From positions 1 to 20,148 of IMG/VR virus record IMGVR_UViG_3300031973_000209: 20,148 bases of DNA. One strand, written 5' to 3'. Both the position numbers and the translations under genes were made by a program. This document shows positions 1 to 18,047 of this stretch, piece by piece (within the stretch, counting starts at the first letter, position 1; each line of letters opens with the position of its first letter). The stretch comes from a virus. Under the pieces are notes generated by a model. That model saw only the letters and a program-made list of their open reading frames with translations, searched no databases and was not told the origin of the DNA.

Positions 1-3000
1 TGATCTAGGCCCAACAATAGCAGCACCAAGAGCTTCCTCTGATGTAGGAATAACTTTAGGATCTAAGCCATACAATTCTCTTAATTCTTCTGCTGACTTG
101 CCTTTGCTTCTCAATCCGTCTATGGTATTTCTAAGCTGGATATCCATAGCTGAGGCTTCTTGTTTTACTTCCTCGAATAATCTACGCTGCTCAAAGGTAG
201 CAGCGTCTGGTGTAGCTGTTTCAGGTACACTATTCTTTCTAGCTCTCTCTGCCATTTTTGCTATGTAATCTTTTCCTGATCCAAAGAATTCTACAAAGAA
301 ACCATCATCCCTTACACCTGGAGCATCAAGAAACTTTCTTTGCATCTTTGGTGGTAACTTAGAGATATCTGCTGTGGTGTATACCCCTCTTTGCAGATTC
401 ATAGCTGCATCGTCTATGGTCATACCCTTTAGTCTATTGAAATCTTCGAAGTACAACTTGCCATCTTTCAAGTTATCAAGAATGTTTCTGAATTCAATGT
501 TACCCAATTTGTTCTGTGCTTTGGCATCAAAGAGCAGCATATTCAAAGCATCGGTATCTTCAGGTTCTAAATAGAAAAACTTTTGCGGCTTTGGTGCTTC
601 AGCATACCCACCCAGTTCTGCCATCTGTGACTTTGATGCTGATATTCTCTCGGCATCAATACCGATCTTTCTTGCAGGTACTACATCGCCTGCAAACACC
701 CTACGTATGGGAGCTGTCCACTTACCAAAAACACCTTGTGTATCTATGGTTTGCTTTCTTCCGTGATAAATTTGAGAAAGATATTGTGATAGTGGAGATT
801 TGTTTGCTTCTGCGTAAAGCTCAGCTTCTCTTGCTGGATGGGTAAAGGTCTTTCTGGTTACTGCTTTTACACCATCTAAACCTCTTAGGCCAGGTGCTGC
901 TTCAAAAACCGAAGACCTTGCGTAGTGATAGTCTACAAGTTTTTGTACATCTGCTAGTTCATCAGGACCCATTCTAGCAATTCTCGTTCCTCTGGATGTG
1001 GCAATCCTATCAAGCAATTCTTTATTTACCCTAGGGTTGTCTAGTAATGCTTGCTCAGCAAAGTCAAAGCCTTCGTCCGCTACTTCGTCAAGGTATCTTT
1101 GGGTAGCATCGTGTTCTAATTTGGATTGCTTTGCATTTCCAAACATTTTTTCGTCAACTGCTTTAGATGCTTCAGTTACGTCATCACCAGTTCTAGCAAT
1201 GTGTTCATCTAGTAACTTAGCGTACTTAGTATCAGGGTTAGGAATCTGACCTTTAGCCGCAGTTCTAGAAGCCTCTAGTTCTCTGGCAGTCTTAGCACCT
1301 ACAAGAGATCTGATATCTCCGTAATCATCAGTAGCTTTAATTACTTTCTTTGCTAGTGGCTTACCTACAATTGGCATATGTGTAATAAAGTTTACATCTT
1401 TTGCAAAAGCATTTAGTCCAGAACCACCTGCTGCTTTTAAAACTTCACCTACAGCCTTTGCGTCTGTAGAAGTATTTAGAACTTTTTGTGCTTTGTACAT
1501 TTGACTACCGCCCTTGAGGGCTTTTGATCCAGCAATCAAAACACCAAAGTCTGGTGACAGAATATCTCCAGCTAAACCACCACCAACAACTACAGCGGCT
1601 TGCCAACCTTCTAATCCAAGAGCGTTAGATACGTCTTGGAATTCACCTGTAAGCCCTTTGTTAAGTGCTATCGAAGCCATATAAGAAGAATCTGCGTAGT
1701 CAGGTGTTGCTTCTGCTCTACCCTTTCTTCTTGCCATACCCAGTGTAGATGGTTCACCGCCAGCAAATTCTGGAATAAAAGAAGATAATCCTGTTGTAAA
1801 GTAATCAGCTTCTTCGATCAAACCAGCTTTTGCAGCAACTTCAAAGCCTACACCCATAGCGGTTTCTACAGCAGGTTCTAGAACAGGCTCAATCACGTTT
1901 TCTTGTACAGCTACAGCCAATACGTTTAGCGGAGCCATACCCATACGAAAAACATAATTCTTAGAAGTCTCGGCCTGCTTACCCATATAGTCCATGTCAG
2001 TGAAGAAACCTTCAACAACATACTTGTCGGGATTAGCTTTGATATCTGCTTTTAAAGCAGGGTCAAGAAACCAAGCATTAGGATCACCAAATTCATTAAT
2101 AGCTCTAACAGAAGTTAAAGCACCACCCATAGTGGGGCTGATACTATTTGATGTACCTCTACCAGCTGACATAGATACACCACCAGCATTTCTAATAGCT
2201 TGGTCTGCTTGTGGCGATATAAGCGTTCTTGTAGTCTTTGGGTTTGTGTTTGTAAGATAATCAAATACTTCTCTTGGCACAGTACCAGTTGCAGTACCGC
2301 CAATAGGGAAGCTAACCAAATCTACTTCTTCTTCGCCAATCTTCTCTCTGTTCTCAGAAAAAAACTTATAATAAGGCTTCTCAATGGTCTTCTTAACGTA
2401 AGCCATCTGTGCTGGTGTGTAGTCCTTAACCTGCCCTTTGTTACCTGTTACCTGCAATTCAAATGCACCAACAGTATCTTCAGAGAATCTATCTTGTAGT
2501 TCGGTTTTTGCAGGTTCAAATGTAGGAGCAGAATCTATTGCTGCTATCTCATCAAGTGCTTTTCTAAGTGCATCATCAGTACCTTTTGATAGGGGCAACA
2601 AACGAAAGTAAGCTTCTTCAATAGCGTCTACTTGTGTCTGTGCATTATCAAAGTCTATATTAGGATTAGCAGTTATGACAGCATTGTACAATCCGTCTCT
2701 GTCCAATCTTGTATCTGACTTTTTACTAGAGAACTGCTGAGGTCTAAGTGGAGATACAGCACCAGTGAGAGAAGGCAGCTGACCTGTAGCTGTTTCAATA
2801 GGAGGAGCGGCAGGAATATCTACACCTAAAAATTCTGCAGGTGCAGTCTTTTCTGCAAAGTCACCAAAGGTAGCAGTAGTAGGTGGCTTTACATAAGTCT
2901 CTCTAATCTCTTTGTCGAACTTATTGTAGATGCTATCGTAGCTAATAGAAGATGCAGGTATGCCAGAATCTATCATGGCTTGCATCTCTTGTTGCGTCTT

Positions 3001-3231
3001 TAAATCAGCAAGCTGACCAATAAGCGTTTGCTTTTCTGTTTCGTTAGGAATTAAACCTGACAGCAAAGGATCTGGGGCAGAAGGAGAATAATAATAATTA
3101 CCCAAGATAGAAGACATTGTAGGAATACCATACTGGTTTTCTTGTATCTCTCTATCTGCATATCCTCCAAGGATCTGGGCTTCTAAGGCTTTCTTTTTTC
3201 TTTCTAATTCCAGTTCTTCTGGCGTTGGCAT
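1..3231 (-). CDS. Giant virion protein, probable internal/ejection protein (3' end outside window)
   Basis: Reading from ATG at 3231, the frame stays open for 1077 codons to base 1 without a stop, so the gene continues beyond the window. The start is supported by AGGGGTG five bases upstream, and it lies nine bases after the preceding gene. I recognise no catalytic domain in the visible part. The N-terminal ~430 residues are mostly polar with Pro/Thr-rich stretches. Two weakly hydrophobic Ala/Gly/Val-rich segments follow (about 433-470 and 541-565, the second containing AAVVVGGGLAGD). The rest is charged and largely helix-forming. Size and its place last in a run of 215-, 547- and >1077-aa proteins after the tail nozzle match the T7 gp14-gp15-gp16 order. 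An ejection (inner core) protein that enters the host envelope with the DNA is therefore the best inference. The T7 gp16-type N-terminal transglycosylase motif is not evident here. It could instead be another large structural protein. Confidence 0.8.
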   Translation of the reverse strand, partial: MPTPEELELERKKKALEAQILGGYADREIQENQYGIPTMSSILGNYYYSPSAPDPLLSGLIPNETEKQTLIGQLADLKTQQEMQAMIDSGIPASSISYDSIYNKFDKEIRETYVKPPTTATFGDFAEKTAPAEFLGVDIPAAPPIETATGQLPSLTGAVSPLRPQQFSSKKSDTRLDRDGLYNAVITANPNIDFDNAQTQVDAIEEAYFRLLPLSKGTDDALRKALDEIAAIDSAPTFEPAKTELQDRFSEDTVGAFELQVTGNKGQVKDYTPAQMAYVKKTIEKPYYKFFSENREKIGEEEVDLVSFPIGGTATGTVPREVFDYLTNTNPKTTRTLISPQADQAIRNAGGVSMSAGRGTSNSISPTMGGALTSVRAINEFGDPNAWFLDPALKADIKANPDKYVVEGFFTDMDYMGKQAETSKNYVFRMGMAPLNVLAVAVQENVIEPVLEPAVETAMGVGFEVAAKAGLIEEADYFTTGLSSFIPEFAGGEPSTLGMARRKGRAEATPDYADSSYMASIALNKGLTGEFQDVSNALGLEGWQAAVVVGGGLAGDILSPDFGVLIAGSKALKGGSQMYKAQKVLNTSTDAKAVGEVLKAAGGSGLNAFAKDVNFITHMPIVGKPLAKKVIKATDDYGDIRSLVGAKTARELEASRTAAKGQIPNPDTKYAKLLDEHIARTGDDVTEASKAVDEKMFGNAKQSKLEHDATQRYLDEVADEGFDFAEQALLDNPRVNKELLDRIATSRGTRIARMGPDELADVQKLVDYHYARSSVFEAAPGLRGLDGVKAVTRKTFTHPAREAELYAEANKSPLSQYLSQIYHGRKQTIDTQGVFGKWTAPIRRVFAGDVVPARKIGIDAERISASKSQMAELGGYAEAPKPQKFFYLEPEDTDALNMLLFDAKAQNKLGNIEFRNILDNLKDGKLYFEDFNRLKGMTIDDAAMNLQRGVYTTADISKLPPKMQRKFLDAPGVRDDGFFVEFFGSGKDYIAKMAERARKNSVPETATPDAATFEQRRLFEEVKQEASAMDIQLRNTIDGLRSKGKSAEELRELYGLDPKVIPTSEEALGAAIVGPRS

Positions 3232-5580: not shown

Positions 5581-5602
5581 CCAATAGGGTAACTTAGGGA
5601 AG
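5581..5602. repeat. 22-bp inverted repeat, copy B
   Basis: On the plus strand this begins CCAATAGGGTAAC and ends TTAGGGAAG. It is the exact reverse complement of 13742-13763; the match ends at both flanking bases. Two TAGGG blocks (5585 and 5595) sit 10 bp apart. It lies in the gap before the 215-aa gene, and the minus-strand transcript would carry the complement of copy A. Confidence 0.95.
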
Positions 5603-5615
5603 AGCTACTAGAGAG

Positions 5616-5634
5616 GGACCTCCCCAAGAGGTCC
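5616..5634 (-). other. Intergenic hairpin B (possible terminator or processing site)
   Basis: GGACCTC (5616-5622) pairs perfectly with GAGGTCC (5628-5634) around a five-base loop. It lies three bases after the stop of the 240-aa gene. On the transcribed minus strand no U-run follows, so it is not a standard intrinsic terminator; an mRNA-end stabiliser or processing hairpin is equally likely. It is the mirror image of the hairpin beside copy A of the inverted repeat. Confidence 0.7.
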
Positions 5635-5637
5635 TGA

Positions 5638-6360
5638 CTATACATAGAAGACCTCTGCTGTCATAGACTTAACAGAACAATAAGCTACTTCATTATGAGG
5701 ATCTACTGAAGCTGTAAAGTTATAAGTTCCTGCATCTAAGGTTACAGATACTGTTGTCATAATAGATCTATAAGATGCCATCTGATCTCCAGCCCAAGGA
5801 TCTAAAGTATCTGACGTAGAACCTGCTGGATCAAATGCGTAGTTGTCTGTAACATTACCTAGAAAGAATCTCTTGCTATCTACCCCTCTGGTATAAGTAA
5901 TAATAATTTCATTTTGCCAAAGACCATTACCAGGTCCTTTTGAGGAAGTGGGAGCTTCATTTCCTTGTACATAATAGTGAAGATACATTGTAAGTAGACA
6001 CTTTGCTCCGTCTTGCTTTACGTGTACCCTGCATCCTGAATTTGTGATGTCTTGCCAATCTTTTACCAGCGGATCTGTCTGAGAATTATTTTTAGTTGTA
6101 GAAGTTTGGTATGACCTGTTGGTGTAATTGGCTAGCTCTGCAGAACCTACTACTTCTCCAGTTTCAAAAGAATAAGCACCCTCTAGTGGAGAGAACCTAC
6201 CCAAAGCTATATCTGACTTATCTAAGGACAAACCATCAATATCTCCAGCTACAATCTCTTGGTTAAGGAAATCTTTTAAAGATTCTTCATTGTTTTGCAG
6301 ATGCTGCGTTCTTAATTCGCTAGTATCTGTATATTGATTTGGTTGTGTATATGTAGACAT
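5638..6360 (-). CDS. Beta-rich virion protein, third of a tandem trio
   Basis: 240 residues, function not recognised. The first ~70 residues are polar and contain the motif DIDGLSLDKSDIALGRFSP. Such 'G-x-L-x-x-x-x-I' repeats are common at the N-termini of phage fibre or appendage proteins. The rest alternates short beta-forming stretches with turns, ending in VTLDAGTYNFTASVDP and a final strand with AEVFYV, like a beta-sandwich. ATG at 6360 shares one base with the upstream stop (TAATG) and is preceded by GAGGT, so translation is probably coupled. Similar size, layout and N-terminal motif to the next two genes suggest diverged paralogs forming a tail or head appendage. Confidence 0.8.
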   Translation of the reverse strand: MSTYTQPNQYTDTSELRTQHLQNNEESLKDFLNQEIVAGDIDGLSLDKSDIALGRFSPLEGAYSFETGEVVGSAELANYTNRSYQTSTTKNNSQTDPLVKDWQDITNSGCRVHVKQDGAKCLLTMYLHYYVQGNEAPTSSKGPGNGLWQNEIIITYTRGVDSKRFFLGNVTDNYAFDPAGSTSDTLDPWAGDQMASYRSIMTTVSVTLDAGTYNFTASVDPHNEVAYCSVKSMTAEVFYV

Positions 6361-7019
6361 TATGACCTCGCTAGTACAACATTTATATTGTATCTTGTTA
6401 CTTCTACAGACTGATGACTAGCGTCACCGATAACCGCTTGCAGTTCTACCCTCTCTACAGTATCGAGAGGAGAAATTAAAATTAATTCTGTACCAGAACA
6501 AGATCTCCACTGGATACCATCGGTATTGATAGCAGATGAATCAGTTTCTATCGACCTGTTAGAAAAAGAATAAATTCCTGGAGCTATATATTCTGTACCC
6601 AAAGTTGTTGTTACCTTAATTCTAAAGCCATAATCAAACCCTGCTTGTACGTCATTACCTGGATCGGTAAAGCTAAGTTCTCCTACTAGAAGATCCCAGT
6701 GTACCCTTAGTAACGATGTATTCACTGCCTGCTTATCTATGTCGATGTACGCTTGTTCTCCACCATTCATAGATATGGTTTGCCAAGTCTCAGAGGTACA
6801 AACATAAGATGCAGAAGTTTCAAATCTTTGAAAATTAAATAATCTGTTCATTGGTTCTTCAGAGCCTACATCTCTATCGAAGTGTTCTCTTGTAGCCCAA
6901 TTAGCATCAGTGTTTTCACCGTCTATATCCATATTCTCTACAGCAACATAAACTTCGTTTAGCTCTGTAGCAGTAGGTGCATCACCTTCTTTAAAATGTT
7001 TTCCGTTTACTTTTCCCAT
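6360..7019 (-). CDS. Beta-rich virion protein, second of a tandem trio
   Basis: 219 residues, function not recognised. The N-terminus (MGKVNGKHFKEGDAPTATEL) resembles the start of phage fibre or receptor-region proteins that begin with a short 'K-V-NG...G' strand. Then comes MDIDGENTDANWATREHFDRD, which occupies the same place as the NG/IDG motif in its neighbours. From ~75 on, strands alternate (LRVHWDLLVGELSF, FDYGFRIKVTTTLG, VEVTRYNINVVLARS), giving the impression of one beta-sandwich domain. ATG at 7019 follows AGGTAGGG. It ends in a one-base overlap with the following gene. One copy of the recurrent 17-nt motif lies inside it (6452-6468). Confidence 0.8.
   Translation of the reverse strand: MGKVNGKHFKEGDAPTATELNEVYVAVENMDIDGENTDANWATREHFDRDVGSEEPMNRLFNFQRFETSASYVCTSETWQTISMNGGEQAYIDIDKQAVNTSLLRVHWDLLVGELSFTDPGNDVQAGFDYGFRIKVTTTLGTEYIAPGIYSFSNRSIETDSSAINTDGIQWRSCSGTELILISPLDTVERVELQAVIGDASHQSVEVTRYNINVVLARS
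6452..6468 (+). repeat. Recurrent 17-nt dyad motif, copy 1 (TCTCTACAGTATCGAGA)
   Basis: Identical to 19891-19907, and 15 bases of it are repeated in reverse orientation at 8764-8778. With its flanks it forms a hairpin, CCTCTC-N9-GAGAGG. It is inside a coding region here. Confidence 0.75.
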
Positions 7020-7025
7020 AGTTCC

Positions 7026-7757
7026 CTACCTATATGTATTTCTTGCCCAGATACCAGCAGACCACAGCTCTAAAGGTGTGGTTGGATTATCTGTGTATGA
7101 TGGTGTGTTAAGGGCATTTGATGTAATAGATTTCCAGCGAATATCTATCCTTACTTTCTGACTACCAACAGGAATAGAAAAAGGAATTACTAAATTTTCT
7201 CCTCTTGGATAGCATTCTCCAGATTCTGCTACAAGAACATCATTTACGAATACACCCCATCTAGTCCACCAGTCAAAGCCTGTTTGAGCGTGTAGCGTTG
7301 TTTCTCCAGAAATGTAGGTCACTACATTGACACCGTGCCTAAAGTTTATTCTCGCACATCCTGACAACATCCCCTCAACCATTTGGTCTTGGATAAAGAT
7401 ATCGTCAAACTGCCCTATCGCTTCTAGCTTGTTCCAGTTCTTTCCCCAATTATAAGTTTTTAAATCTAAATCAATGATGGTATCGTGCCAAGTTGTATCG
7501 GAATCTAAGTTCTGATACTTAGTGCTTTCATAGTAAGTTTGCGTAGCTGCTTCCCACTTAAACTTTTTTACATCTCCAGCGGAGAGATCTGTGATTGTTA
7601 CTGGCTCAAACTTCTTAAAGCTAAGAGAATCTACAGGCAGATTAGTAGAATCTAAGCCGCCATTAAGCTCTCCTGCATAGTGTTCAACATTCTCATTGAA
7701 TGTTTCGGGTACAACTTGTGTGTAGTCCCACTGTAGTTTTTTAGGAAATTTCTTCAT
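7026..7757 (-). CDS. Beta-rich virion protein, first of a tandem trio
   Basis: 243 residues, function not recognised. An N-terminal ~55-residue region carries GELNGGLDSTNLPVDSLSF, the clearest version of the 'N-G-x-L-D-x-x-N-L' repeat often seen in phage fibre-like proteins. After a helical linker there is an aromatic-rich beta domain (FDWWTRWGVFVNDVLVAESG, then VRIDIRWKSI) ending in WSAGIWARNTYR. The ATG overlaps the nozzle stop by four bases (ATGA), with AGGA upstream, implying coupled translation and a role close to the tail. Candidate roles are tail appendage, receptor-binding adaptor or head fibre. Confidence 0.8.
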   Translation of the reverse strand: MKKFPKKLQWDYTQVVPETFNENVEHYAGELNGGLDSTNLPVDSLSFKKFEPVTITDLSAGDVKKFKWEAATQTYYESTKYQNLDSDTTWHDTIIDLDLKTYNWGKNWNKLEAIGQFDDIFIQDQMVEGMLSGCARINFRHGVNVVTYISGETTLHAQTGFDWWTRWGVFVNDVLVAESGECYPRGENLVIPFSIPVGSQKVRIDIRWKSITSNALNTPSYTDNPTTPLELWSAGIWARNTYR

Positions 7758-9988
7758 CTTGGTGATCCTGCGTTTAGATTGATCGACTGGTTCAGCGGCT
7801 TGATAGCTTCAGAAGAAGTAGTTAGACGGTAAGAAACCACGGTAAATGGATCTAGTATCTCGCCTAGCAACTTGAACTTAAACGAACCTACAAGTCCTGT
7901 GTTTACGTCAAATCTTAAAGTAATTTTTCTGTGACCGTGTATCAGGCTTTCACCTACAATAAAAGGATTGTTGGTAACACCATTGGCCCCTGCAGGGCCG
8001 ACAGATACGGGCGGTTCTTCTTTAGTAAAAACATAATCTGAATAAGCTTGCTTTTGAGGTTTGGTTTCGTTGTCTGTTAGAAAGTGATCTGCATACCAAG
8101 CTACTTTCATCTCTACATCACCCCAAGCTATGATGTCAACTTCTACAGAAAACACCCTTACCTTTGCTCCTTCGAATTCTATCCAAGAAGATTCCCAAGA
8201 CTTTTTAGTAGAGAGAACTTGAGCAACTTGGTAAGTAATTGTTCCATCGACATTACTAGTGATGGTAGCTGTTTGACCGTGGAAATGAGAAGCACACCAA
8301 ACGTGTAGAGGTCCGAACAGGGTAGTTCTAGAATCTATATTATTATCATCTGTCCAGTTAGGAGAAGATCCAACAATAAATCTACCAACCTCATCTACAC
8401 CTAGTCTGTTAAAGGTCCATAGGTTGTCGTTAATGGGGTTTAAAGCCTTTCTAAAAGAGAACTGGGGTTCTTGCATATCCGTATGAATTACAATCCCTCT
8501 AGAAGGAACTGTGGAATAGTCAGCAGGGTAATGAATCCAAAGTTCTTTTTCTACATCAGAATAAGCAGATGTTACCCTTGCTATGCTTGCATCGTTACAA
8601 GTCTTCCATTCTTCGTTTACAGCATCAGATATTTTTTTAATTTCTATTCTAGAGCCACCATCAAATCCACCTGTTAAGGAATAGATACCATCAACAGTAA
8701 CAAAAGTAAGTCCAAGTCTAGGTACAAACTGTATAGCATTTGAAGCAACAGTACCAATAGAAGTCGATACTGTAGAGAATGTATAGCCGCCAGATCCATT
8801 CGGTCTTACAATGTTAACAGCATTCTCTCTAAATATAATTAGATTATTATAGTAAGCCTTTATCTGCGTAACCTTACCACCTACTGTATTACCTAGATCA
8901 AAGTAAGAAGTAGCTGCAAATTGCTCAGGTATTCCCTTATCAGAATAGATTACTGTGTCTCCCTTAGCTAACCAAACACGCCCATCCCAGTTTTCACCGT
9001 AAGCATAATCAGAGCGAATCATCGATGATGCCGTAGCACTGGGAGCTAGAGAGACTAGGAAGGTGTCGCCCATATAGTCAATGTACATCTCAGAAGAATT
9101 TTCTTTTATTTCTTTTAGAAAGAAGAATTCACCTGTCGTGTCTTTGCTGTCTTTCATATTCTTTGTTCTGTACAATCTACGAGCAACACAACCTTCGGGA
9201 GCAAAAGGTAGTTCTAGATAAATTCCATATTTATATTCTGCAGTTCCAGAATTATCAGGGACCCTCCACACTTCGTACCAAGGGGAGCTGAGAGGCGATT
9301 CAGCACCGTCTTCAGTGATCCAAGACATTCTATAGCCGTACTGGTTTAAAGTGTGGTCAATGTCCCCTAAGCCAAGCGTAGAGCTAGTACTAAACCAAGG
9401 TGCACCTGTACCATATTCTAGTTCTTCTCCTTGCTGGTAGTTAGCTTGAACATTTGCAGGAAAAATATCTGGTGCAGGGAAAGTAAAAGAAAAATCTCTC
9501 CAGTTACCGTTACCACCAAACCAGATAGGTTTGTCATAGCCGTTGATAATAAGTAGCTTAGATCCGTAAGGAATATATTGTGTACCTGCTTCACCTGCTT
9601 TTGGTATATGTCTCTTATCATCTACAGTGTGTATATCGTTCTCATAGTATGTACCTGTGTAAGAAGTACCTTGTCCTTTGTTTCCAAAGAAATAATATAA
9701 GGTCCCTGCTTGCTCAACAAAGATGTAAACTTCTCCAGAACCAGGTCTTTTCCAAAAATAAAAAGAATCTACTTTCTCGTCGAAGTAGAAGGCAGGTGTA
9801 GCTGTTGGCTTTACAAAGTTATTAGGAAATTTCCAGTAAGGCTGTAATGACCTGTCAGAGATCCAAGCACCTAAGTTAGAATCAAATCTTAAATCTACAA
9901 TCTCAGAAGCATACTGGGGTGTAGCGGATAAAGATCCGTTAACACCTAATGCTGTTATTGTTTTTGTCTTCGCACCCTTGATAGCCAT
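7754..9988 (-). CDS. Tail nozzle protein (T7 gp12 / P22 gp10-type)
   Basis: 744 residues, similar in size to T7 gp12. The protein is beta-rich throughout. Around residues 375-440 it shows the hallmark segment of phage nozzle/stabilisation proteins: NNLIIFRENAVNIVRP, a glycine turn, then STSIGTVASNAI and LTFVTVDGIYSLTGG. This is a propeller-like repeat in which an uncharged loop checks '...dGiy...'. N-terminal strands begin GAKTKTITALGVNGSLSATP. The product would form the distal part of the short tail, through which DNA passes. ATG at 9988 has GAGGGTAATT upstream, located in the last codons of the adaptor gene (gap two bases), so adaptor and nozzle are translated as a pair. The assignment rests on motif and order, not on a search. 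Confidence 0.82.
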   Translation of the reverse strand: MAIKGAKTKTITALGVNGSLSATPQYASEIVDLRFDSNLGAWISDRSLQPYWKFPNNFVKPTATPAFYFDEKVDSFYFWKRPGSGEVYIFVEQAGTLYYFFGNKGQGTSYTGTYYENDIHTVDDKRHIPKAGEAGTQYIPYGSKLLIINGYDKPIWFGGNGNWRDFSFTFPAPDIFPANVQANYQQGEELEYGTGAPWFSTSSTLGLGDIDHTLNQYGYRMSWITEDGAESPLSSPWYEVWRVPDNSGTAEYKYGIYLELPFAPEGCVARRLYRTKNMKDSKDTTGEFFFLKEIKENSSEMYIDYMGDTFLVSLAPSATASSMIRSDYAYGENWDGRVWLAKGDTVIYSDKGIPEQFAATSYFDLGNTVGGKVTQIKAYYNNLIIFRENAVNIVRPNGSGGYTFSTVSTSIGTVASNAIQFVPRLGLTFVTVDGIYSLTGGFDGGSRIEIKKISDAVNEEWKTCNDASIARVTSAYSDVEKELWIHYPADYSTVPSRGIVIHTDMQEPQFSFRKALNPINDNLWTFNRLGVDEVGRFIVGSSPNWTDDNNIDSRTTLFGPLHVWCASHFHGQTATITSNVDGTITYQVAQVLSTKKSWESSWIEFEGAKVRVFSVEVDIIAWGDVEMKVAWYADHFLTDNETKPQKQAYSDYVFTKEEPPVSVGPAGANGVTNNPFIVGESLIHGHRKITLRFDVNTGLVGSFKFKLLGEILDPFTVVSYRLTTSSEAIKPLNQSINLNAGSPR
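8764..8778 (-). repeat. Recurrent dyad motif, copy 3 (reverse orientation)
   Basis: TCGATACTGTAGAGA on the plus strand is the reverse complement of the first 15 bases of the 17-nt motif at 6452 and 19891; with the next base it matches the 19890 copy over 16. The dyad arms are broken here (only one side of the stem is kept). It lies inside the nozzle gene. Confidence 0.65.
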
Positions 9989-9990
9989 AA

Positions 9991-11484
9991 TTACCCTCTA
10001 TAGTGTAGATTCGAAATATCAAAGCGAGCAGAGCGTTGTCCCATAGAAAACTGTCCTCTCTGTACTTGGAAGTCAATCTTATCTACATATCTTTTCTCTA
10101 AACCTTTCACTTCGGTTTCGTATTTCTTTTCATAAATCCTAGCCATATCAATCTGACCTAGCTTTAGATAGATATCTTCTAGAGCCTTGTAGACAATAAG
10201 CTGATGGAATTCAACAGGCATATCAGGTACATCTGTTCCTAGAAGAAGATCTTGTGGTTTCTTCATATAACGCATAATGCCCTGTCTTACGTAGTTGTGG
10301 AACTGTGTAATAATAGCAAAGTCTGTTTTCCTAGGTAGCTCAATGTCATATCCATTTACACGAGGATAAAAACGAATTTGTTGGTGCAACCCATCTCTTT
10401 CAATATATCTTTCATTTCCAGAATCCAACTGGGTTATGTCATCGATTGTAACCTCAAAGTCTTCATCAGATACAAGCAAAGGCTCTAAGTAAGTGTTTGT
10501 ACCCCTAGAACCACCTTTCGTTACTTGCACCCAACAGTGTAGACCTTTGTGTTCTCCAGTCTTTCTGTCTAGATTTTTATTAAAGAATATAACCTTACGA
10601 TAACCTTCCCACTGTGTAGGTGTCTTGTCGTTTGCATAGAAACCGTCAGAGAATATCTCTTCATCATTCCAAGACATAAATTTTAAAATTACAGATCCGT
10701 TGTTACCGTGTGTGTGTACCTGTGAAGGTTCTGATAAAGGCCCAATCTTACCGTCCTTAACAAACGCATAACAGAATTCCCAGTAGGTATTGTTTGGTAG
10801 CGTACCAGTCTCACCGTCTCTAATCTCTAATCTTTCTGCAGGTTTAATCTGTACCGTAGGACTGTTGATGTAAGCCTCTGCGTAAGGCTGATCGTAGTCT
10901 ACACGCATATTAAGGCGTTCTTCCATTGAAGGAAGAATAGCCGAAGATTTACCGTATGGATTAGACATACCAGATACTGTTGTGTATGGGTAATCTCTGT
11001 GTCCTACATAAAGCAATTCAGAGCAGTCTTGTGGTAAGTCATAGTATCTTTTTTTAATTTTCCAAGCAGTAGAATCTGTGAGGTCTTCGCCTCTGTATTC
11101 TTCTGTTAGCTGTATGTTTCCGCTGACATCGATATAGTTGATGATGTATTCTTGGTTGTTCAGCTCAATTATAGCTCCTTCCCATACATCTCTTTGAGAG
11201 ACAAGGCGGTCTACAAAAGTAAAGAATACAACTTTTCTTGATCCAGATGCGATGGTGATGGTTTTCTCTGCACCAAGGGGCATACCTTCGTTATCTCTTG
11301 CAGGTGTAATATCTGGATAAAAATCAAAGATAGCTAGCTTTGTTGTGAAGTTCCAACGCTTTTTAGTATAGATAGAATAGTAAGCGTCGTTGATAAGATC
11401 ATCTAGCTGTTCATTGTACTGTTGCAGCTCTGGGCTGTAGTCAGTAATGTTTTTAATTTTCTGGCGTAATGCAGTTAGGTTCAT
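9991..11484 (-). CDS. Head-to-tail adaptor protein (T7 gp11-like role)
   Basis: 497 residues. The N-terminus (LRQKIKNITDYSPELQQYN, then LDDLINDAYYSIYTKKRWNF) is the typical helical start of phage adaptor/tail tubular A proteins. The C-terminal helix pair at ~424-468 (VEFHQLIVYKALEDIYLKLG followed by an ARIYEKKYETEVKGLEKRY segment) is the matching end. Between them is a large beta-rich insertion, including an Fn3-like piece (YWEFCYAFVKDGKIGPLSEP). This makes the protein much longer than the ~200 aa of simple adaptors. It would form the ring joining portal to nozzle. ATG at 11484 is preceded by GGGAGGATC. The gene is the first after an intrinsic terminator and follows one of the three recurrent ACTTTTTA/AT-rich leaders, so it probably starts a transcript or a read-through segment. 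Confidence 0.85.
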   Translation of the reverse strand: MNLTALRQKIKNITDYSPELQQYNEQLDDLINDAYYSIYTKKRWNFTTKLAIFDFYPDITPARDNEGMPLGAEKTITIASGSRKVVFFTFVDRLVSQRDVWEGAIIELNNQEYIINYIDVSGNIQLTEEYRGEDLTDSTAWKIKKRYYDLPQDCSELLYVGHRDYPYTTVSGMSNPYGKSSAILPSMEERLNMRVDYDQPYAEAYINSPTVQIKPAERLEIRDGETGTLPNNTYWEFCYAFVKDGKIGPLSEPSQVHTHGNNGSVILKFMSWNDEEIFSDGFYANDKTPTQWEGYRKVIFFNKNLDRKTGEHKGLHCWVQVTKGGSRGTNTYLEPLLVSDEDFEVTIDDITQLDSGNERYIERDGLHQQIRFYPRVNGYDIELPRKTDFAIITQFHNYVRQGIMRYMKKPQDLLLGTDVPDMPVEFHQLIVYKALEDIYLKLGQIDMARIYEKKYETEVKGLEKRYVDKIDFQVQRGQFSMGQRSARFDISNLHYRG

Positions 11485-11494
11485 AGCAGGATCC

Positions 11495-11520
11495 TCCCTA
11501 TATATAATAAAAAGTAAAAG
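11495..11520 (-). promoter_or_regulatory. Recurrent AT-rich leader motif before adaptor gene
   Basis: The minus strand reads CTTTTACTTTTTA, then TTATATATAGGGA. Aside from one indel and one substitution it is the same as the element before portal (18021-18047). The downstream TATAGGGAGGA resembles the initiation region of T7-type single-subunit RNA polymerase promoters, but its GGGAGGA also serves as the ribosome binding site. The T-rich part doubles as the U-tract of the terminator just upstream. Promoter activity is an inference. Confidence 0.45.
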
Positions 11521-11549
11521 GGGCGGCAGCGAATGCCACCAGCCCCCTT
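11511..11549 (-). terminator. Intrinsic terminator after decoration-protein gene
   Basis: On the minus strand a GC-rich stem (GGTGGCA with TGCCGCC, one G-U pair, five-base TTCGC loop) extends through a small bulge into AAGG/CCTT. It is followed by TTTTACTTTTTA. It begins about 30 bases after the decoration-protein stop. Probably attenuates transcription from the abundant head genes into the tail genes. Confidence 0.75.
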
Positions 11550-11577
11550 ATTGAAGAACTACGTTATAGTAATTTAA

Positions 11578-12027
11578 TTAGAAGTTCTTACAAACGTAAA
11601 CTGAAATGCTCTCAGCAGTAGTCGAAGCAGCCAAAGCAACAGCAGCGTAAGGCGTAATGTTAGCACCTGTAGCATCTGTTTTAGCAGCACCTACACCAGC
11701 AGCAGCAGAAGGAAACAGAGCGTCTCCTACAGCGATGTTTACCGAAGTACCATCTACTTTCATATCTACTACACCTTTGATGCAAACACGAACCTTTCCG
11801 CCTTCATCAGCAGCAGCCAAAGCTACACCGATAGGGCAAGCATCAGTAGCATCACATTCTTTTACGAAAAGCATTTGATCAGCAGCATCAGTTTGGCTCA
11901 AGTCCAAAGCAACCAACGCACCTTCAGCAATAGCTTCACCAGCCAAGAATGATTCAGTTTGATTTCTGTTAGAGGTATCAACCCCAGAACCAGATTCTAA
12001 ATAATTAATTAATGTATTTGTTGACAT
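11578..12027 (-). CDS. Capsid decoration (cement) protein, DUF2190-like
   Basis: 149 residues. After a polar start, residues ~28-110 follow the pattern of small head decoration proteins: EAIAEGALVALDLSQT, then PIGVALAAADEGGKVRVCIK and GVVDMKVDG, VGDALFPS and a closing strand with YAAVALAAS. Such proteins trimerise on the capsid surface and stabilise it. The gene lies 12 bases after the major capsid gene, with GGGGG six to seven bases before its ATG. This neighbour relation is usual for cement proteins. Its alanine-rich, GCA/GCT codon use makes this one of the less AT-rich genes in the window, as expected for an abundant product. A strong terminator follows it. Confidence 0.82.
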   Translation of the reverse strand: MSTNTLINYLESGSGVDTSNRNQTESFLAGEAIAEGALVALDLSQTDAADQMLFVKECDATDACPIGVALAAADEGGKVRVCIKGVVDMKVDGTSVNIAVGDALFPSAAAGVGAAKTDATGANITPYAAVALAASTTAESISVYVCKNF

Positions 12028-12039
12028 AATAACCCCCTA

Positions 12040-13086
12040 TTAGTAAGTGTCTGCATCGAATAAAACGCCACAAGAACCCAGGTGATCAGCGATCAACTGC
12101 ATCTTAACGTACAACTGAGCAGCTCTAGCAGTAGAACCAGATACATTCTCAAAAGCAGAAAGAGCGAAGTCAGCGTCTTTGTGCATACACAATTTGATAG
12201 CATCGAAGTTGATAAAGTAACCAGAAAGAGCAGCAGTAGTAGGTGCACTAGCAGTTTGGAATGATTGTGATGTTACGTCAAAACCAAGTTCAAGGTCTTG
12301 CTCAACAACAGCACCACCGAATGCCAACTGCATTCTACCAGCGTCTAATGTTTTTTCATTAATATATCTTTCTTGTTGGAACAAGGCTCTACGATAGTTA
12401 GCCATAGCTTGTTCAGAAAGAAGTACAGTTTGGATTTCTCCCATAGGAGCAACAGATCCAGCCTTGATAGCAAGCTCTTGCATTTTTCTGATACCGTTAG
12501 TACCGAATGCACCTGAAGCTGTAACAGCTTGGTTACACCAACCAGTAGCATTTGGGTAATCTTGTTTAGAGATTCCACCAACAGTGTTACCAGCCAACTT
12601 TTGTTGAGCTACAGTTTCTGCTTCCAAGAATCCACCAGAAACAGCACCGTTCAAAGTATTGAGGTTTGTCAATACAGAGCTATCTCCTCTAAGAAGCTGG
12701 CGATTTATATTCTTCCTAAGCATCGTCATTACCGATCTCATACGTGCTTCAAGAATTTTAACAATCGCTTTTTCCCCAGAATTTTCTAATTCTTCTCTCT
12801 TACTGATCACGATTGGAGCTACATAGTCTGCCCAGTCAAAAATAGCAGGTCTCATTACGTCTCTTACAGACATATCGATTCCTTCGTATCCAGAGCTGAT
12901 TTGTGTTACTGTTGAATGTTCTTCCAATGCCAATGGGCGTTGAATTTTGATACCACCATCTTCGTATTCGATTCCACCAAATTTCTTGGCGTTATCTAAG
13001 AAGGCAGTCTTTTGAAATAGCTGATCGACTTCACCATCTCTAATGCTATAGAGGGTTGACGACAGCAGGTCATTTGAAATAGCCAT
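12040..13086 (-). CDS. Major capsid protein
   Basis: 348 residues, the usual size for an HK97-fold capsid protein without a covalently attached scaffold. Visible landmarks: an N-terminal arm with DNAKKFGG; the EYEDGGIKIQRPLAL segment, in the style of an E-loop; then VRDVMRPAIFDWADYVAPIV and a long helix (EARMRSVMTMLRKNINRQLL) typical of the spine helix. The C-terminal half has ADFALSAFENVSG and a final beta strand. Function is assigned from these features plus position between scaffold/amidase and decoration protein. ATG at 13086 has AGAGG upstream. The 181-base non-coding leader before it contains several hairpins and the third copy of the ACTTTTTA element, so it is likely separately expressed at high level. 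Confidence 0.88.
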   Translation of the reverse strand: MAISNDLLSSTLYSIRDGEVDQLFQKTAFLDNAKKFGGIEYEDGGIKIQRPLALEEHSTVTQISSGYEGIDMSVRDVMRPAIFDWADYVAPIVISKREELENSGEKAIVKILEARMRSVMTMLRKNINRQLLRGDSSVLTNLNTLNGAVSGGFLEAETVAQQKLAGNTVGGISKQDYPNATGWCNQAVTASGAFGTNGIRKMQELAIKAGSVAPMGEIQTVLLSEQAMANYRRALFQQERYINEKTLDAGRMQLAFGGAVVEQDLELGFDVTSQSFQTASAPTTAALSGYFINFDAIKLCMHKDADFALSAFENVSGSTARAAQLYVKMQLIADHLGSCGVLFDADTY

Positions 13087-13267
13087 AATAATTTTCCTCT
13101 CATATGGTTTTAAAAAGTTCTTTCGTTAGAAAGTAGTGTAAGTAATAATTTTCTTTGTTACGTGTTCCTTGCGGAATGTACTAGGAAAGCTATTCCTTAC
13201 AAGTGTTCCCATATGGGAGGTTGCATTGGATGCTGTTCCTACTGTACAGAAAATGTAAAATAAATAT
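13087..13267 (-). promoter_or_regulatory. Hairpin-rich leader of the major capsid gene
   Basis: This is the longest non-coding stretch in the window, 181 bases. In transcription order it holds the 12-bp palindrome TCCCATATGGGA (13207-13218); a stem AGGAA/TTCCT (13183-13197); a stem TTCC/GGAA with a GCAA tetraloop (13165-13176); a stem CTTTC/GAAAG with a TAAC loop (13120-13133); then the ACTTTTTA element and the SD. GGAAC recurs three times between 13160 and 13240. No U-run follows any stem, so these look like 5'-UTR structure and not terminators. I find no convincing -35/-10 pair. Confidence 0.55.
13097..13119 (-). promoter_or_regulatory. Recurrent AT-rich leader motif before capsid gene
   Basis: The minus strand reads GAACTTTTTAAAACCATATGAGAG. 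It shares ACTTTTTA and, after an A/T stretch, CATATGAG with the portal leader (AATATATATGAGGGA). It ends in the capsid gene's ribosome binding site. Confidence 0.4.
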
Positions 13268-13693
13268 CTAGACATATCTTTGCTTTATCTGCAGAAGTAC
13301 CTCTACTAGCTTTTCACCAGGGCAGGCTGTAGCTTGCCAGTTCTTATGCCAAGTCACTTCATTCCAAGTAAGGTCATGGGTTTCTAGCAATCTATTTATA
13401 AAAGTTTCTAAGGTATCCATCATAGGTTTACGAGGTACTTCATTCTCATAATTACCAACAACACAGATCCCAATAGAATCTTTATTTCTAGGTGGTGAAT
13501 GTGCACCACGTCTGTTCTCAGGTCTAGCCTTGTACACTGTAGCATCATTCTTAATAATATAATGGTAGCCTATATCAGACCAGCCATTGTCCTCTACGTG
13601 CCACTTACGAATACGCTCAGGTGTAGTTCTATCAATGGGTGATGCAGAATGATGTATTACAATATATTTAATTTCTCTCTTTCCTTTCGGCAT
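13268..13693 (-). CDS. N-acetylmuramoyl-L-alanine amidase (phage endolysin, Amidase_2/PGRP type)
   Basis: 141 residues, a single-domain zinc amidase close in length to T7 lysozyme (151 aa). It cleaves the bond between N-acetylmuramic acid and L-alanine in peptidoglycan to lyse the host. Visible catalytic set: the IVIHHSA strand (H14 as first zinc ligand, H15 adjacent); Y43 in GYHYIIKND; H65 in the RGAHS loop; DSIGICVVGN; then H116 and C124 in the WHKNWQATACPG segment as the other zinc ligands. T122 stands where T7 lysozyme has Lys128, as in many PGRP-type amidases. There is no signal peptide and no cell-wall-binding domain, so it would need a holin, not seen here. SD AGGAG lies upstream of ATG 13693. 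Its place between scaffold and capsid genes is unusual and it is flanked by structured non-coding DNA on both sides, which suggests an inserted, separately regulated gene. Confidence 0.93.
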   Translation of the reverse strand: MPKGKREIKYIVIHHSASPIDRTTPERIRKWHVEDNGWSDIGYHYIIKNDATVYKARPENRRGAHSPPRNKDSIGICVVGNYENEVPRKPMMDTLETFINRLLETHDLTWNEVTWHKNWQATACPGEKLVEVLLQIKQRYV

Positions 13694-13712
13694 TACTTCT
13701 CCTAGTGAAGCA

Positions 13713-13731
13713 GGAGGCCTTCGGGGCCTCC
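13713..13731 (-). other. Intergenic hairpin A before the amidase
   Basis: GGAGGCC (13713-13719) pairs with GGCCTCC (13725-13731) around a five-base loop. It is 10 bases from copy A of the inverted repeat and about 20 bases before the amidase start. No U-run follows on the minus strand. Possible attenuator, processing site or translation control element for the amidase. Confidence 0.7.
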
Positions 13732-13741
13732 CTTAGATGTA

Positions 13742-13763
13742 CTTCCCTAAGTTACCCTATTGG
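13742..13763. repeat. 22-bp inverted repeat, copy A
   Basis: Exact reverse complement of 5581-5602. It starts one base beyond the scaffold stop codon. On the minus strand its 5' part also fits into a local hairpin spanning 13749-13770 (AAGTAATCC with GGGTAACTT, one A-A mismatch and one G-U, loop AATA) that includes the scaffold stop codon. Confidence 0.95.
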
Positions 13764-18020: not shown

Positions 18021-18047
18021 TCCCTCATATATATTAAAAAGTAAAAG
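18021..18047 (-). promoter_or_regulatory. Recurrent AT-rich leader motif before portal gene
   Basis: The minus strand reads CTTTTACTTTTTA, then ATATATATGAGGGA. It is nearly identical to the element before the adaptor gene (11495-11520) and similar to the one before the capsid gene (13097-13119). It fills most of the gap after the terminase stop. It may be a late promoter core plus ribosome binding site; no transcription evidence is available from sequence alone. Confidence 0.45.

Follow-up and report, generated by a model that had tools for sequence, protein, structure and literature searches.

A dispersed phage repeat with an invariant 18-nt core and a structure-conserved hairpin: a possible late promoter-like module

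The window analysed here is the whole 20,148-nucleotide stretch of IMG/VR virus record IMGVR_UViG_3300031973_000209, and it contains a perfect 22-nt inverted repeat. In this study, we found that the 22-mer belongs to a larger module of about 55 bases, which takes in the hairpin beside it and in which the 22-mer is the conserved portion. Dispersed regulatory repeats with a stem-loop are a known kind in phages, and the module is a new form of them, specific to one lineage. Tentatively, and with less than even confidence, we read the repeat as the recognition part of a dispersed, orientation-specific late promoter-like module with a 5' mRNA hairpin. A puzzling inverted repeat becomes a defined, testable module made of a sequence-fixed site and a structure-fixed hairpin. 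The phages of this group are uncultured, and the collection of cultured phages that was searched contains none closely related to them.

The two arms lie at 5581-5602 on the + strand (copy A) and at 13742-13763 on the - strand (copy B), where they carry the 22-mer CCAATAGGGTAACTTAGGGAAG in opposite orientation and are exact reverse complements. An earlier note on this DNA had described a perfect 22-bp inverted repeat, a hairpin with a 7-bp stem on the inner side of each arm and genes that all lie on one strand, and all of this held on re-examination. The copy A hairpin (GGACCTC-CCCAA-GAGGTCC, 5616-5634, +) stands 13 nt from its arm and the copy B hairpin (GGAGGCC-CCGAA-GGCCTCC, 13713-13731, -) stands 10 nt from its own; both have a 7-bp stem and a 5-nt loop, and one G.U pair can extend the stem. 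The window genes are on the - strand. With up to 3 mismatches allowed, the 22-mer had no further match in the window, nor did any occur in 100 dinucleotide shuffles. Among 200 first-order Markov sequences as long as the window, the longest exact inverted repeat reached 18 nt, compared with 22 nt in the window itself. These results show that the inverted repeat is beyond chance.

Read in one orientation, the module runs from the core CCAATAGGGTAACTTAGG through a purine run and a spacer to the hairpin, and this order is constant. Copy A occupies 5581-5635 (+), with the core at 5581-5598, the purine run and spacer at 5599-5614 and the hairpin at 5615-5635. Copy B occupies 13712-13763 (-), with the core at 13746-13763, followed by the purine run and spacer, and the hairpin at 13712-13732. 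Copy B is co-directional with the genes and copy A is inverted relative to them. The inversion takes in the hairpin as well as the repeat, so that copy A is an inversion of the whole module. In module orientation the A and B hairpins share the loop CCNAA and a C-G closing pair, and three of their stem pairs differ, with both sides changed in each.

The copies were then sought in related DNA. An IMG/VR contig of 31,480 bp (G001), 99.7% identical to the window, has a 77-bp terminal direct repeat, which suggests that the assembly is closed, at about 31.4 kb. It carries copies A (G001:24917) and B in the same orientation as in the window, and a third copy, C, at 10862-10883 (-) in the region beyond the end of the window. 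Copy C reads CCAATAGGGTAACTTAGGAGAG ACACCACCAAG GACCGCC-CCGAA-GGCGGTC; it has the same sense as B and has 18 nt in common with A and B without mismatch. In contig L081, at 76-81% DNA identity, copy B was found in the same gap between the scaffold and amidase genes with the 18-mer unchanged and with a very different, perfectly paired 8-bp stem, GACGGTCC-CCCCGA-GGACCGTC. This contig was retrieved through an 18-mer search, so its core identity was partly selected for; the identity of the core among the three G001 copies and the absence of near-misses are free of this bias. Copy B is also present in fragments L007 and L066. The L081 contig stops before the A locus and G001 has both A and B; the core is invariant in all copies, and no diverged relative spans both arms.

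Exactly 18 nt, with a sharp left edge, are invariant in the four distinct modules (A, B, C and the L081 copy of B). The core ends in TTAGG, and from its final GG the sequence continues as GGGAAG, GGAGAG or GGAAGA, purine-rich and free in order. The spacing from core to hairpin is 13-17 nt and the stem is 7-8 bp long. All 8 of the 8 stem pairs are kept in 4/4 modules, mostly via two-sided changes, and more than one pair type occurs at 7/8 stem positions; the pairs were tabulated directly, as MAFFT does not align the bare hairpins correctly. From the sequences, such a pattern would be expected for a site that is read by sequence, followed by an element that is read by shape. When 2.2 Mb of related DNA were scanned for a hairpin preceded by the core, with as many as 6 mismatches allowed in the core, the matches were the copies with an exact core and four others with 6 mismatches; there was nothing at 1-5 mismatches.

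The module is restricted to this uncultured phage lineage. In dozens of distant relatives with the same gene order and a capsid protein about 56-75% identical, the gap between scaffold and amidase is mostly 11-57 bp; none of these gaps holds the module, and the few longer ones have other sequence. The g240-g215 region of the distant relatives likewise lacks it. A search for a similar k-mer-plus-hairpin repeat in other relatives gave a few shared 11-mers in G007 and G009. The exact pattern also occurs in L077, within coding sequence of an unrelated phage, in L082, a contig of Alistipes, and in L184 and L185; none of these has the module hairpin, and they were dismissed as chance. No convincing copy was found in INPHARED phages, nothing beyond a chance match in a set with a single genome for each bacterial and archaeal species, and no Rfam family at or near gathering score. 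The literature offered loose analogies only to this type of module. Among phage records, only remote relatives were found for the capsid protein and the terminase encoded in the window, and none for the portal.

The positions of the three copies relative to genes were examined. Copy B begins 1 nt past the scaffold stop codon, upstream of the amidase and capsid genes. Directly downstream is the amidase gene (13268-13693, -; Pfam Amidase_2, E 1.1e-20), and the same segment holds the major capsid gene (12040-13086, -; PHROG 9953, E 1.9e-22). After the capsid cluster, between a decoration-type gene and the tail-tube gene, a strong hairpin GGTGGCATTCGCTGCCGCC that resembles an intrinsic terminator, with the T-rich tail CCTTTTACTTTTT, lies at 11522-11540 (-). 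Some 3 nt separate the hairpin end of copy A from the stop codon of g240. This copy sits between the tail genes and the genes in the place of the T7 internal virion proteins, and points the opposite way; no + strand gene follows it. Copy C in G001 precedes an HNH/NUMOD4 gene and the gene of a 423-aa orphan protein, and heads a leftward gene group that runs into the terminase genes. A sigma70-like promoter, read by eye, stands between copy C and the HNH gene.

Signals of known kinds were compared with the module. No T run follows the module hairpins on either strand and they are absent from the terminator list; no promoter-like match overlaps copy A or B and no sigma70 boxes lie in the module. 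It therefore fails as a sigma70 promoter and as a terminator. GC skew placed no origin or terminus near the copies. The closest layout is that of T7 promoters. At phi1.1A, phi1.3, phi3.8, phi10 and phi17 of T7 a purine start is followed by a hairpin within the first 40 nt, as in the module, and in all four modules a conserved site comparable to the roughly 17-23 bp of T7 promoters runs into a GG/GA purine start. In T7, phi10 lies between scaffold and capsid and Tphi after the capsid gene; copy B and the 11522-11540 hairpin occupy the matching places. However, the core sequence differs from that of T7 promoters, there are three copies only, and B and C but not A are co-directional with the genes they would serve, leaving one copy antisense. 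Since no cognate single-subunit RNA polymerase gene was recognised in G001, the module is only laid out like a T7-type promoter and is not filed as one. The promoter early stem-loop (PeSL) cassettes of T4 are similarly promoter-plus-stem-loop cassettes dispersed in phage genome gaps. They combine an early sigma70 promoter with a stem-loop that acts as a terminator, whereas the module has neither a T run after the hairpin nor sigma70 boxes. Cluster K mycobacteriophages have a 13-bp start-associated repeat of unknown function in 11-19 copies near start codons, and part of the extended start-associated sequences have additional 17-bp inverted repeats upstream (PMC3203893). Both systems place a short conserved repeat in gaps before genes, some with an inverted-repeat element, but the module has an 18-mer, three copies and a downstream hairpin. 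The 17-bp repeats of Cluster O mycobacteriophages, present in more than 30 copies and also of unknown function (PMC4351075), are strictly conserved and dispersed as well; unlike the module, they are palindromic and carry no attached hairpin.

The promoter-like reading rests on the module structure, the invariance of the core, the covarying stem, the positions of the copies and the lineage restriction. The invariant 18-mer with its sharp left edge in four modules, together with the finding that 2.2 Mb contain no copy with 1-5 mismatches, points to a sequence-specific site. We infer that this 18-bp site, ending in TTAGG, would mark the RNA start (TTA|GG) and its direction. The purine-rich bases after the core, resembling T7 starts, and the constant order of core and then hairpin are consistent with this, and the stem of 8 pairs kept in 4/4 modules, with more than one pair type at 7/8 positions, is what a folded RNA downstream of the start site would be expected to show. 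The purine run, a short open spacer and the 7-8 bp hairpin would then form the first 40 nt of the RNA, and the built-in 5' stem-loop may protect or process the mRNA. Copies B and C, which run in the direction of the genes and each head a gene group, also suit a promoter, as does the absence of the module in distant relatives, those inspected having a sigma70-like box upstream of the capsid leader. Transcription from the module would presumably be late. Copy B would start an amidase-capsid transcript ending at the terminator-like hairpin 11540-11522, copy C would drive the leftward operon, and the inverted copy A would either be silent or produce RNA antisense to the tail genes. A promoter role would give this phage, with its genome of about 31.4 kb, a transcription signal with an unrecognised reader and one antisense copy. 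Against a promoter, copy A points against the genes with no + strand gene after it, no T7- or N4-type RNA polymerase was detected in G001, and the sigma70-like promoter between C and the HNH gene means that C need not be one.

The polymerase search used T7 gp1, N4 gp15 and N4 gp16 as queries and gave no match in G001; as a control, N4 gp16 finds T7 gp1 at 8e-9. It was used in place of a PF00940 search, which was uninformative as its control matched nothing. The 423-aa orphan, encoded just downstream of copy C (L078:8896-10167, -), has D-x-S-x-x-G, K-x7-F-G and Q-F-D-G motifs that look polymerase-like by eye, with no model support. It has no family match and no homologue in IMG/VR, INPHARED phages, PDB or 13 more distant relatives, and its single-sequence AlphaFold model (mean pLDDT 38) is unusable. 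That it is a miniature single-subunit RNA polymerase with the 18-mer as its promoter, one copy being antisense to the tail genes, is in our view very doubtful.

Other explanations of the module were weighed against the promoter-like one. The earlier note had raised a duplicated site as one alternative, and of its suggestions this fits best, with three whole-module copies, an invariant core and a structure-conserved hairpin. Such a site might serve a phage protein other than a polymerase, acting as a repressor (stoperator-like) or in antitermination, replication or packaging, with the hairpin belonging to the DNA or RNA signal. Orientation would then not have to follow transcription, and copy A is accounted for without an antisense transcript; the strict 18-mer, the few copies in both orientations and the lack of a recognised RNA polymerase also agree. 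Yet a protein site of this kind does not require the fixed order of core, spacer and hairpin or the purine run past GG, and no DNA-binding regulator was recognised among the scanned G001 genes; we regard it as somewhat unlikely. A small mobile cassette, of the promoter-stem-loop type like T4 PeSLs or a miniature element, perhaps with the adjoining HNH gene, would explain why the three copies stand in gaps that are missing or of different sequence in distant relatives, why C lies ahead of the HNH/NUMOD4 gene and why both orientations occur. However, stems that diverged with compensation beside an invariant core indicate copies that are old and selected rather than freshly moved, the flanks have no visible target-site duplication, and outside the lineage there are only chance matches; this origin appears quite unlikely. 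Recombinase sites inverting the 8.1-kb segment, another proposal of the earlier note, are highly improbable despite a perfect inverted repeat of suitable length: none of the scanned proteins was recognised as a recombinase, the orientation is identical in two assemblies (the window and G001), inversion would set the capsid and tail genes against the operon, and a third copy exists.

Pairing between RNA copies of A and B was also considered. Long-range inverted repeats flank a transcript segment in the RNase III processing stems of rRNA precursors. By analogy, A and B might form a 22-bp panhandle within one late mRNA, and an RNase III cut would free an 8.1-kb amidase-capsid-tail mRNA with a hairpin at both ends. 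The complementarity suggested by the earlier note is real: A and B match perfectly over 22 nt on one-strand transcripts, C only over 18 without mismatch, and the hairpins lie inside both arms. Its idea of pairing or a loop contact is weakened by the same-sense copy C and because copy A is an inverted whole module, beyond the arm alone, with CCNAA loops in module orientation. Copy C would compete, A being complementary to it over 18 nt, and the terminator-like hairpin 11540-11522 falls between the arms. As the core never varies, no compensating arm change supports pairing in any sequence compared, and the arms differ from the rRNA stems in this lack of covariation, in the third same-sense copy and in the whole-module inversion. 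We consider such a panhandle rather improbable; if it did form, it would give a phage structural mRNA that undergoes long-range processing, which is rare.

Further elements were observed near these genes. The leader of the major capsid gene (13087-13267, -) has a hairpin, CATTCC-N3-5-GGAA[CT]ACG, about 45-100 nt before the start codon. It is kept in most of the family (L010, L044, L033, L037, L054, L058, L081 and others); alignment folding supports it with little covariation, it matches nothing in Rfam, and it may serve to control the capsid gene. In L010, L044, L033, L050 and L037, near-canonical sigma70 boxes (TTGACA-17 nt-TATAAT-like) were seen by eye immediately before the capsid leader; they were not seen, by eye, at this place in the window lineage. 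A 21-nt direct repeat, 95% identical between 11500-11520 and 18027-18047 and reading CTTTTACTTTTTA(T/A)TATATAT on the gene strand, lies upstream of the ribosome sites of the tail-tube and portal genes, and T-rich boxes like it stand before the capsid gene and g215; from its sequence it is a candidate for a separate late promoter motif. The place of the internal virion proteins is occupied by a giant protein, about 2,490 aa long in G001, the start of which lies at 1-3231 (-); it continues in L079 and L078 and has no clear family match. Between convergent genes at L078:12915-12940, a perfect 9-bp hairpin, AAAGCCATC...GATGGCTTT, is probably a bidirectional terminator.
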